From positions 1 to 33,482 of the forward strand of contig SYJV01000552.1 in the NCBI GenBank assembly GCA_005798335.1: 33,482 nucleotides of DNA, in the 5' to 3' direction. The position numbers and the translations under genes are program-made. Positions within the stretch are counted from its first letter, which is position 1; each line of letters begins with the position of its first letter. Positions 27,626 to 31,232 of the stretch are shown piece after piece. The stretch comes from Planctomycetaceae bacterium. GTDB lineage: Bacteria > Planctomycetota > Planctomycetia > Pirellulales > Pirellulaceae. Below the pieces are notes generated by a model. That model made no database searches. It saw nothing but the letters and a program-made list of their open reading frames with translations, and was not told the origin of the DNA.

Positions 27626-29173
27626 ATGCCTAGTTCCGGACCTGCTTCGATGACGGGATTGACCAGTGCACTAGCGGGAGGCAATTCATCGGGTGATTCC
27701 GCCAAATTGGATGAATTGCTACAGCGCATCAATCAGCTTGCAGGCAATTCTCCTGGTGCCTCCGCAGGCGCGGAAGTTGTGGCTGCCCCACCGGCTAAGC
27801 CGGCCGCTTCCGCCTCGTTGCCCGAGCCAAATGCAGCCGCGACGTCGGCAAGCCAAGCAGTGAACAACAAAGTACCTCAGAGTTTTGCAAAGATCACCGG
27901 CGACTCCGAGGAGCCTTTCATTCCCAATGTACCCGGGTCGCTCCGTGAAGCAGGCATCGGGGAGGGATTGGTCGAAGAGTTGATCATGCGGTACTTGTTG
28001 AGCAAAGGCGAAGCTCCTGGGCGCATGATTGCTGACCAAATCAAACTGCCGTTCCGATTGCTCGAACCGATTCTCAATCGACTTAAATACGAACAAATGA
28101 CCGCGTACCGCGGCGCGAATTCGCTGCACGATTACACACATATATTGACTGACCAAGGCATGGATCGCGCCCGTCGATACCTCCTGCGCACGACTTATTT
28201 TGGTGCCGCGCCTGTACCGCTCGAACAATATTGCCAAGCCGTTAAAATGCAATCGGTTGAAGGTCAGAGTCCTGGCCCTCAAGACCTCGCCCGCGCCTTC
28301 AAGGATTTATTGATCGATCGCAAGATGTTCGGTCGGTTGGGGCCGGCGATCAACAGCGGCAAAGGCATGTTTCTGTACGGTTATCCAGGAAACGGCAAGA
28401 CCAGTATCGCCGAACGCGTCACTCAAGCGTTTGGCAAGTACATCTGGATACCTCGCAGTATCATAATCGAAGGTGAGATCATGCGTCTGTTTGATCCGCT
28501 GATGCACCAGGAAGAAGACAGTACGCCCGCCAACGTTTCGCCTTTCGAAGAAAGCAAGTTTGACAAGCGTTGGGTGCGAGTTCGCCGTCCCACGATCGTT
28601 GCCGGCGGTGAATTGACGATGGATATGCTCGAAGTGCGCAAAGACCACACGACGAACATCAGCGAAGCCCCTTTGCAATTGAAGAGCAATTGCGGTGTGC
28701 TGCTCATCGACGACTTTGGCCGCCAAAAAATGCGCGTCGACGAGTTGCTGAACCGTTGGATCGTGCCCTTGGAAAAACGCTACGACTACCTCAATCTTTG
28801 TAGCGGCAAGAAGACTCAAGTCCCGTTCGATCAACTGGTAATCTTTTCCACCAATCTGCAACCCAAGGATCTCGTTGACGACGCGTTCCTAAGGCGTATT
28901 CCCTACAAGATCGAAGTGCCCAACCCCAGCGAAGAAGCGTTTCGAAAGCTGTTCGAAATCATGTGTCCAAAAATCGGCTTGCCGTATCAACCCGAGTCCA
29001 TTAACTACTTGGTCGAAAAGCACTATCGTGCGAATGGGCGTCCATTCCGCAATTGCCATCCGCGCGATCTGCTATTGCAAGTTCGCAATTATTGCTTGTA
29101 CCACAAATATCCTCTGGAATTACGCATCGATTATCTCGACTTCGCCTGCGAGAATTATTTCTCGATCATGTAA
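27626..29173 (+). CDS. AAA+ type ATPase, function unknown
   Basis: The 515-residue protein begins with an Ala/Pro/Ser-rich, probably disordered stretch (about 1-85). A helical region follows that may be winged-helix-like (LVEELIMRYLLSKGEAPGRM, DQIKLPFRLLEPILNRLKYE). The ATPase core has Walker A GYPGNGKT (252-259), Walker B LLIDDFG (359-365), sensor-type FSTNLQP and a likely arginine finger in DAFLRRIPYKIEVP. A C-terminal helical lid follows. I recognise the fold but no specific family name; no signal peptide or TM segment is seen. The frame is open from a GTG at 27533; I prefer ATG 27626 with a weak AGAGA upstream, but this is uncertain. It follows polX by 200 bases; no partner gene is evident. 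Confidence 0.82.
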   Translation: MPSSGPASMTGLTSALAGGNSSGDSAKLDELLQRINQLAGNSPGASAGAEVVAAPPAKPAASASLPEPNAAATSASQAVNNKVPQSFAKITGDSEEPFIPNVPGSLREAGIGEGLVEELIMRYLLSKGEAPGRMIADQIKLPFRLLEPILNRLKYEQMTAYRGANSLHDYTHILTDQGMDRARRYLLRTTYFGAAPVPLEQYCQAVKMQSVEGQSPGPQDLARAFKDLLIDRKMFGRLGPAINSGKGMFLYGYPGNGKTSIAERVTQAFGKYIWIPRSIIIEGEIMRLFDPLMHQEEDSTPANVSPFEESKFDKRWVRVRRPTIVAGGELTMDMLEVRKDHTTNISEAPLQLKSNCGVLLIDDFGRQKMRVDELLNRWIVPLEKRYDYLNLCSGKKTQVPFDQLVIFSTNLQPKDLVDDAFLRRIPYKIEVPNPSEEAFRKLFEIMCPKIGLPYQPESINYLVEKHYRANGRPFRNCHPRDLLLQVRNYCLYHKYPLELRIDYLDFACENYFSIM

Positions 29174-29216
29174 TTCCGCAATTGGGACTGGCGCCGTTAT
29201 TCTTCAAGTATGTGTT

Positions 29217-29357
29217 GCTTAGGCGCAATACCGTTCAACGAACGTGGGATAAGCTTACAGCTTGTCAATATCTTGTGCAAGCAATGGCGAAACTCCGCTA
29301 CAGGTTGACAAGCTGGAAGCTTATCCCACGTTCGTTGAACGGTATTGTGCTTAGGCG
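29217..29357. mobile_element. MITE-like hairpin with 9-base flanking direct repeat
   Basis: Arms 29226-29268 and 29305-29347 are complementary at 42 of 43 positions, with a 36-base loop. Immediately outside lie two exact copies of GCTTAGGCG, at 29217-29225 and 29349-29357 (one extra T between the right arm and its copy). A long terminal inverted repeat bordered by a 9-base direct repeat is what a small non-autonomous transposon leaves after insertion. No coding capacity is present. It lies 43 bases after the ATPase stop. Confidence 0.65.
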
Positions 29358-29433
29358 AGTGGCAATACGAAATCTAAGGGCGAGTTGTTCCGACGGAGTT
29401 CGACGCGAGCGAGACTCCAACCGAGCGCGAGTC

Positions 29434-29452
29434 CCACCGACTGGTTCGGTGG
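29434..29452. repeat. Short stem-loop before GTTAGG
   Basis: CCACCGA (29434-29440) pairs perfectly with TCGGTGG (29446-29452) across a 5-base loop and is followed by ATTGTTAGG. The upstream text (29376-29433) is rich in GCGAG words. It looks like part of a recurring intergenic element. There is no T-run, so it is not a classical terminator. Confidence 0.45.
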
Positions 29453-29647
29453 ATTGTTAGGCTTCAAGCAACTCAGCATCGCACTTATCTCGCGCCTGCA
29501 ACTCCGGCGCAAATTCTACGGATGTTCCGTATCGCCGATGGCAAGCTGGGGGCAAACTCGCTGCCCCAAACCACGCTCGGGGTGTCGCGATTCGCTGTGT
29601 GGTATCTGCCAATTCAATGAACTGGACAGCGATACATATTTGCAGTC

Positions 29648-29714
29648 TATAAGCCCGAAGCGAATGCGATCCCATGGCATACATAGTTTTTTCGCTTGCG
29701 CGTTGCGTTACAAT
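29648..29714. repeat. REP-like element, copy 4 (degenerate)
   Basis: The left side TATAAGCCCGAAGCGAATGCGA and the right side TTCGCTTGCGCGTTGCGTTACA keep the word order of the REP family (AAGCCCGAAGCG ... CGCTTGCGCGT), but their pairing is broken by several mismatches. It lies upstream of the oxidoreductase gene. Confidence 0.5.
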
Positions 29715-29771
29715 AAACTGAAATATTCTGCCAAGGTGACGCTGAGCAAATTGTTGGAAGGGCGATAATCG

Positions 29772-31232
29772 ATGAACAAAATTTCTCGTCGTGCGTTATT
29801 GAAGAGTGCCGCAGCGAGCAGCGTGTTTCCACTATTCACGATTGGCGGAACCAAGTCCTCCGGTCAAATCCTGGGAGCGAACGACGTGATCCGCGTCGGC
29901 GTTGCAGGGATTCATGGGCAGGGGCGAGCTCATATCGAACAGTACATCGGTCTACCCGGTTGCCAAGTCACGCATTTGATCGATCCCGATGCACGGCTCT
30001 TCGAATCGCGCAGCAAGATGGTGCAGGACAAATGGGGGCATCGGCCAAAGTGCTTTCAAGATTTGCGCGAAGCGCTTAACGACAAGGAGTTCGACGCGAT
30101 TTCAATCGCAACCCCAAATCACTGGCACTCCTTGGCAACCATTTGGGCATGCCAGGCGGGTAAGGATGTCTACGTCGAAAAGCCTTTGAGTCATAACATC
30201 ACCGAAGGCAGACGATGTGTCGAGGCGGCGAGAAGATACCATCGAATCGTCCAGCACGGAACTCAACAGCGCAGCAACTCTTGGCAGGCCAGCGAGATTG
30301 CAACGGTACAGTCCGGGAAGTATGGCAAGTTATTGGTCTCTAAGGGATATTGCTGCAAACCACGTTGGAGTATTGGTCACAAACCCATTGCACCAGCTCC
30401 CAGTGAAGTCGATTTCAATTTGTGGCTCGGACCGGCACCCCAACAACCCCATCACGGAAATCTAGTCCACTACAATTGGCACTGGTTTTGGGATTTCGGC
30501 AATGGTGATATCGGCAATCAGGGAATTCATGAACTTGATGTAGCTCGCTGGGCAATCCCTGGCGCAACAATACCTTCGCGAGTTTGGAGTCTAGGAGGTC
30601 GATTCGCCGAAGCAGATCAAGGGCAAACTCCCAACATGCAGATGGCCGTGTATGAATACGGCGACGTTACTCTACTGTTCGAAGTACGTGGATTGGTCCG
30701 AGGTGCCGAGGAAAAACCCGAAAGCCTGCTGTCTCGGTTCAAAGTACTGAATGAGTTCTATACAACAGAAGGAATGATTACGAATAACACGTTTTTTCCC
30801 AAGAACGGCGGCCAGCCGCAGAAGCTGGACAAGCTTGATGTCAAAGTCACCAATGGTGGAGCGTGGGGGAGTTTCCTGAAAGCTGTGCGCAGCCGCAATG
30901 TGTCCGATTGCAACGCGGATGTCGAAATCGGACACTACTCTTGCGTGTTAATTCATGCGGCAAATGCATCGTACCGCTTGGGGAATGATGTGCCCTTCGA
31001 TCCCAAATCGCAAAAGCTGGGAGACAACCGCGAAGTAGTCGAATCGTTCAATAACCTGCAAGCAAACTTGAAAGAAGCAGGTGTACAACTGAACGCTGCA
31101 ACCTATCGAATGGGTCGGACGTTGACGATGAATGCTCAGAAGGAACAATACATCGGTGACGGAGCCAAGGAAGCGAATGCTTTCCTGTCGCGTGACTACC
31201 GCGCTCCGTTTGTCGTACCTCACAGCGTGTGA
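29772..31232 (+). CDS. Tat-exported Gfo/Idh/MocA family oxidoreductase
   Basis: The 486-residue protein starts with a twin-arginine signal (SRRALLKSAAASSVFPLFT), so it is probably exported folded with its NAD(P) cofactor. The Rossmann domain follows (VIRVGVAGIHGQGRAHI, about 39-55), with the family blocks AISIATPNHWHSLAT and VYVEKPLSHN (the EKP motif at about residues 137-139). The C-terminal alpha/beta domain includes HYNWHWFWDFGNGDIGNQGI and HELDVARWAIP. Such enzymes typically oxidise or reduce sugars or their derivatives; the substrate cannot be told here. GGAAGGG lies about nine bases before the ATG. The beta-helix gene starts 49 bases downstream on the same strand, which suggests joint work on a polysaccharide, though this is inference. 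Confidence 0.93.
   Translation: MNKISRRALLKSAAASSVFPLFTIGGTKSSGQILGANDVIRVGVAGIHGQGRAHIEQYIGLPGCQVTHLIDPDARLFESRSKMVQDKWGHRPKCFQDLREALNDKEFDAISIATPNHWHSLATIWACQAGKDVYVEKPLSHNITEGRRCVEAARRYHRIVQHGTQQRSNSWQASEIATVQSGKYGKLLVSKGYCCKPRWSIGHKPIAPAPSEVDFNLWLGPAPQQPHHGNLVHYNWHWFWDFGNGDIGNQGIHELDVARWAIPGATIPSRVWSLGGRFAEADQGQTPNMQMAVYEYGDVTLLFEVRGLVRGAEEKPESLLSRFKVLNEFYTTEGMITNNTFFPKNGGQPQKLDKLDVKVTNGGAWGSFLKAVRSRNVSDCNADVEIGHYSCVLIHAANASYRLGNDVPFDPKSQKLGDNREVVESFNNLQANLKEAGVQLNAATYRMGRTLTMNAQKEQYIGDGAKEANAFLSRDYRAPFVVPHSV

Follow-up and report, generated by a model that had tools for sequence, protein, structure and literature searches.

The window, that is, the whole stretch of 33,482 nucleotides that was analysed, carries at 29,226–29,347 a palindromic MITE of 122 bp (orientation arbitrary), which was most likely mobilised in trans by a transposase of the IS4 subgroup and took its interior from a resident palindrome. 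As expected of a MITE, the element is short, bounded by terminal inverted repeats, and, with its 122 bp, too small to hold a transposase gene. As a class the MITE is ordinary; what stands out is how an IS4-type MITE, a palindromic repeat and an IS50-type element are layered.

The two borders of the window copy are marked by the direct repeat TGCTTAGGCG, seen as identical flanking 10-mers at 29,216–29,225 (left target-site duplication) and 29,348–29,357 (right). An initial sequence-only reading had given this repeat 9 bases. It is indeed exact and in the same orientation on both sides, but its length is 10 bp, the T before GCTTAGGCG being common to both. The left terminal inverted repeat, CAATACCGTTCAACGAA, occupies 29,226–29,242 on the plus strand (17 bp, IS4-like, as judged from the end matches and the comparison with IS4 described below), and the same sequence is found on the minus strand at 29,331–29,347. 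Its inner border at 17 bp is a putative one, drawn from an interior motif that exists without MITE ends. Between the terminal repeats, inverted-repeat detection and folding delimit a right hairpin arm, TTGACAAGCTGGAAGCTTATCCCACG (29,305–29,330, plus strand), and a loop region separating the arms (29,269–29,304); the left arm, CGTGGGATAAGCTTACAGCTTGTCAA (29,243–29,268, plus strand), contains the motif also found without MITE ends. Each arm holds one site that receives a nested 196-bp element in other copies, namely the consensus site GCTTCCAGC, which reads GCTTACAGC in the window copy (29,253–29,261, plus strand), and GCTGGAAGC (29,312–29,320, plus strand).

The arms were detected as an inverted repeat at 29,217–29,268 and 29,305–29,356 (52 nt including part of the flanks, 92% complementary), and the near-perfect hairpin reported from the first reading is borne out, with 42 of 43 arm positions paired in the window copy. 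The consensus of the 122-bp copies pairs at 43 of 43. The window copy falls one short because of a private change of C to A at base 29,257 (element position 32), which is its single difference from the family consensus.

Searching the genome of origin with the 17-base end, at most one mismatch being allowed, gave 179 and 170 matches (349 together) and 0 and 0 for a reversed control pattern; there are therefore at most about 170 copies with both ends at this stringency. From the initial loci, the first 100 listed end matches and the surrounding stretches, a sample that is not random, we recovered 66 distinct complete copies, of which 59 measure 122 bp, four 131 bp, and one each 118, 126 and 327 bp. 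Within the 122-bp group the copies are on average 98.4% identical in pairwise comparison, and 30 of the 59 show the consensus sequence itself. The full element occurs in its own genome only, among 60 genomes searched including that one, and nine others gave matches of at most 33 bases. From these sequences the burst of copies looks recent and local. Contig ends interrupt several copies, which makes the family a probable contributor to the fragmentation of the assembly.

Beyond these genomes, blastn of the element against plasmids gave no match. Viral contigs contain CAATRCCGTTCANNNAAG in at least 120 stretches, and a scan of 80 of 120 such stretches for an inverted partner returned one loose pair around an open frame, with no transposon recognised; exact CAATACCGTTCAACGAA was absent from the viral contigs. 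No description of this element was found in the titles and abstract openings of the literature searched, including a search on CAATACCGTTCA.

The flanks argue for transposition. Where both could be read (61 copies), the adjoining 10-mers are identical in 48, agree at nine of ten positions in five and at eight or fewer in eight, so that a border repeat beyond chance, as first proposed, is well supported. The 48 perfect duplications represent 44 distinct 10-mers (43 once reverse complements are merged), which follow a palindromic target consensus, CGNYTARNCG, with TA at positions 5–6 in 37 of the 44 and YTAR at positions 4–7 in 36. The first reading would have failed had the flanks proved to be part of the repeat; they differ from copy to copy, and GCTTAGGCG stands on both sides in only four of the 66 copies (L001–L004). 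In these four the outer flanks differ, which points to target preference. Ten of the 66 copies have GTTTAACCC at their border and lie inside a larger repeat, and may therefore not be independent insertions. Two of the ten, L048 (contig C28) and L078 (contig C73), share the same flanks and carry the MITE in opposite orientations, which could reflect either an inversion through the MITE arms or two insertions at one repeat site. Integron attC sites, considered for their TTAGGC motif, were dropped, because the 10-mer duplications explain the motif.

Searches with joined flanks also recovered uninserted paralogous sites with one exact 10-mer: 20 loci in at least 15 separate places for L014, all belonging to a repeat that starts TTAGGCGAGCGGCAGATGGG, two loci each for L048 and L078, and three for L102. 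Empty sites are thus present within the genome, in paralogous form, for these four copies. For the window copy, whose empty site the sequence-only reading had suggested seeking in a related strain, none could be aligned among the 14 congeners compared; the upstream gene aligns in 13 of the 14 (in 12 of these as far as roughly the stop codon), but the orthologous intergenic part fails to align. Together, the perfect duplications, the differing flanks and the uninserted sites uphold the proposal of a recently inserted non-autonomous element with its target-site duplication.

The palindrome could also be read as a structural or regulatory one (a REP-like repeat, a terminator or an RNA hairpin) kept by selection and not mobile. 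Its fold is very stable (−80.7 kcal/mol for the 122 bases, z = −15.4, with 0 of 200 shuffles equally stable), its interior motif is found without ends, and in the 122-bp copies its arms vary less than its loop (0.0047 against 0.0165 per position, the loop figure being inflated by variants shared by descent). The element also lies near the upstream open frame, 52 bases separating it from that frame's stop codon. Nevertheless, the duplications, the target consensus and the uninserted paralogous sites mark its insertion as a unit of 122 bp, which refutes a structural palindrome as the sole explanation and leaves this reading with hardly any probability. Rfam gave no match at gathering thresholds within 28,500–30,000.

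In the window, the element lies between that upstream open frame, which ends at 29,173 and has a weak AAA match (20.4 bits, below the cut-off of 21.2), and a GFO/IDH/MocA-type gene starting at 29,772. Open frames of at least 100 codons span 20 of 34 tested insertion points, compared with 64 of 68 control points nearby; the pieces used as controls are shorter than the insertion pieces, a bias that works against the observed difference. Two further dispersed repeats were noted. The first, about 50 bases at 29,426–29,478 of the window, has several matches in congener G012 at 82–87% identity. The second, TTAGGCGAGCGGCAGATGGGAATTTACCAA, has 283 matches with at most three mismatches in the genome of origin (for example at L199, L203 and L226), is often followed by GGCCTAAGCGAATACAAGCCCGATGCGCAAGCGAGTG, lies several times near contig edges and is a target of the MITE.

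The IS4 subgroup, whose transposases carry DDE and YREK motifs, makes target duplications of about 10–13 bp. The two ends of E. coli IS4 (insG) agree with the MITE end at 10 and 11 of its 17 bases (chance per comparison 0.003 for at least 10 matches and 0.0006 for at least 11), and IS4 is flanked by a 12-bp duplication. We also examined 12 IS4-like plasmid loci, hand-picked among 60 listed of 614 records, whose ends were picked on the strength of their inverted repeat and duplication, regardless of likeness to the MITE. Eight of them have YAATRC-type ends (9–13 of 17 matches) and duplications of 10–12 bp, for example CAATACCGGTAACTTAGG with ACCCTTGACC and CAATGCCGTTGCTTT with CCTCTAAGAC. The other four are unlike: L416 and L417 have ends of another kind, L416 also lacks a duplication, and no ends were found at L420 and L421. 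The MITE thus resembles the subgroup in its YAATRCC-type ends and, with 10 bp, falls within its range of duplication lengths (10–12 bp in the comparison loci), but it has no transposase, and the inner part of its end reads ACGAA instead of the GTTAA or CTTAA of most IS4 elements. For the IS4 family as a whole, the accessible part of one survey gives duplications of about 10 bp (PMC2266710). Resting on the 17-base end and the duplication length, an IS4 affinity of the MITE is probable. A transposase family other than IS4 that also uses CAAT-type ends and makes 10-bp duplications is an unlikely mobiliser: the failure to find a partner gene and the four plasmid loci without this end type would be compatible with it, but the end motif and the duplication length, taken together, match E. 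coli IS4 and the eight plasmid loci.

The transposase gene with matching terminal repeats that the sequence-only reading had suggested seeking did not turn up in the 558-contig assembly of the genome. Exact matches to CAATRCCGTTCA without the MITE's G at position 22 number only three (four for a control pattern), all of them inside recovered MITE copies (L048, L115 and L116), in a test that is blind to a partner with G at position 22 or with a mismatch in the first 12 bases. Five DDE_Tnp_1 matches are present in the genome, the fifth being Tn5-like. The other four were rejected as partners, since none has a CAATACC-like end: the genes at L066 and L067 have other definable ends, that at L068 is cut by a contig edge with its ends undefined, and L063 is a 168-aa fragment. 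The element at L067 (contig C199, 684–2193) is itself of the IS4 family; its ends are CAGCCCTGTGAAGG and its duplication, GCGTCAATGGG, measures 11 bp. The open frames on either side of it may be the two parts of a single gene.

Because half of the 122-bp copies are identical, the transposase of the MITE was probably present until recently, and a multicopy insertion sequence would easily be lost from an assembly in 558 contigs. We propose that a DDE transposase of the IS4 subgroup (insG-like), lost or missing from the assembly, acts in trans on the CAATACCGTTCAACGAA ends; it would excise the MITE and insert it at cuts 10 bp apart. The MITE would thus have spread, probably, by borrowing the transposase of another element.

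Tn5-like elements were another candidate source. On contig C54, a 489-aa Tn5-like transposase adjoins a CAATACC end, and in genome G020 a 474-aa Tn5-like transposase lies between CAATACC ends in a unit of 1,699 bp. These arrangements would fit a MITE that is a deletion derivative of a Tn5-like (IS50-type) insertion sequence of the same genome and is mobilised by the 489-aa transposase, a reading we regard as very improbable. The Tn5-like elements have their own ends (beginning CTTTTTATACCCC and CTGTTGATTACCC) and their own duplications inside the CAATACC element. The G020 unit was accordingly rejected as autonomous partner: it encloses an insertion sequence of 1,543 bp with ends CTGTTGATTACCC and represents a Tn5-like element that sits within a MITE about 145 bp long. 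The C54 element was rejected as well, because its relatives have ends and duplications of their own. Four such relatives in named assemblies (66–75% identity, three labelled Pirellula and one Planctomyces) show no CAATACC ends where their flanks are readable; at L128 and L130 the ends are CTTTTTATACC / CTTGTTATACC, next to duplications read as 9 and 10 bp, and at L129 and L131 only one end is seen. According to the accessible part of PMC2266710, IS10 and IS50 have 5'-CT ends, ISPepr1 has them preferentially, and the other IS4-family members have 5'-CA ends, so that ends of CT type suit IS50 and those of CA type, such as the CAATACC of the MITE, do not.

The insertions of these Tn5-like elements point the same way. 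In G020/G108, 14 loci were examined among the 19 full-length matches listed (at least 19 exist). Thirteen of them lie in the motif GAGGNNACGAG, and 12 have perfect 11-bp duplications; L280 lies outside GAGGNNACGAG with an 8-bp duplication, and one of the 14 has no perfect duplication. A CAATACC end stands near seven of these loci and near none of the other seven, which is against a Tn5-like source. Where CAATACC ends are paired (six loci), the outer 10-mers agree at ten of ten positions in two and at nine of ten in four. In G064, all four loci examined, of six listed, lie in other palindromes, with duplications of 9–10 bp. The insertions in G020, G108 and G064 (L134 and L268–L284) thus fall mostly in palindromes: Tn5-like elements have a preference for palindromic repeats, to which the arms of the MITE belong.

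The 196-bp element that nests in the arms is apparently derived from a Tn5-like insertion sequence. Its ends, CTTGTTATACCCCACATCTTT, have 37 matches in the genome of origin, for instance at L193 (C419), L172 (C86) and L197 (C456). In a tally based on loci for 30 of the 37 places, 20 of 24 distinct flanks abut GCTTCCAGC or GCTGGAAGC in a hairpin arm; right-arm sites are under-counted here because identical flanks were merged. The remaining four flanks come from L172 and L193, where this derivative sits outside the MITE with 9-bp duplications, which again speaks against a Tn5-like source. In the genome of origin, then, IS50/Tn5-type elements are found nested in MITE copies, and they differ from the MITE in their ends and in their duplications (9 bp in this genome, 8–11 bp in relatives). 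The IS50-type element is not the source of the MITE.

An origin of the interior in a resident palindrome, as the IS4-type reading has it, is consistent with where the interior motif occurs. With a pattern that excludes the normal MITE end, CGTGGGATAAGCTTCCAGC was found at 30 places. Of 34 readings of flanks, 23 are free of a MITE end within four substitutions on the readable sides, although inspection by eye reveals a degenerate or far-side end in at least five of these (two at L229, two at L247, and L238). Several other end-less copies form palindromes whose outer arms differ, such as GGTTCATGCAA at L234, L235 and L253, with variants at L244 and L249; alternatively, part of the end-less copies could be decayed MITEs that lost their ends. 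The motif is also present in congeners, in tandem at L022 (G002, C106), and a variant is in tandem at L024 (G027, C1) in another genus. The tandem units seen in these two relatives are of the GTGGGATAAGCTTCCAGCTTGTCA type. The interior would have been gained when IS4-type ends came to flank a resident palindromic repeat beginning CGTGGGATAAGCTTCCAGCTTGTCAA, and such an acquired palindrome would explain why the near-perfect hairpin extends well past the 17-bp ends.

MITEs of other hosts suggest a similar history. In G003, a MITE of 124 bp has nearly identical ends and likewise a duplication of 10 bp, around a different palindromic interior, and the MITE of G020/G108, estimated at about 141–145 bp once the nested insertion sequence is subtracted, wraps yet another repeat; in both G003 and G020 the 18th base of the end differs from that of the window copy, the first 17 being shared. 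Nearly the same ends thus appear to enclose other palindromic interiors in a congener and, judging from the nested copies, in another genus, and we infer that MITE ends wrapped different resident palindromes in different hosts. We suggest, tentatively and at somewhat less than even odds, that one IS4-type end pair repeatedly wraps host palindromes (GTGGGATAAGCTTCCAGC here, GCGTCTCTCCGAGACGCG in the congener and GTAGTGGACGAGGNNACGAG in the other genus) and has thereby multiplied landing sites for IS50-type elements that target palindromes. If true, the system would have two layers, one parasite creating the habitat that another prefers. The MITE burst, which to judge by the Pirellula and Planctomyces labels of the transposase relatives took place probably in a planctomycete, is clear and recent: as many as about 170 insertions can be traced, their target consensus is explicit, and no partner was found in the assembly. 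The family also offers a natural record of hierarchical targeting, in which IS50-type elements choose palindromes that are in part spread by an IS4-type MITE.

REP repeats, to which palindromes of this kind may be compared, have an associated tyrosine transposase (RAYT). They consist of a palindrome of 20–40 bp with a GTAG or CGTC tag at one end, as defined in the accessible part of PMC3733652. The present unit is different, measuring 122 bp and having terminal inverted repeats and duplications. The same source names RUP, NEMIS, ERIC and Nezha as bacterial MITEs (PMC3733652), and these resemble the present MITE in being non-coding, 70–300 bp long, bounded by terminal inverted repeats and able to form hairpins. 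Set beside them by description, the present MITE may be distinguished by a 10-bp duplication at a palindromic target, and by an interior palindrome that also occurs alone and is the landing site of a second element. Insertion sequences that target REP sequences are already known, as the accessible part of PMC1525189 reports, and the Tn5-like elements described here likewise insert mostly into palindromic repeats; unlike in that case, part of the targeted palindromes lie inside another mobile element.
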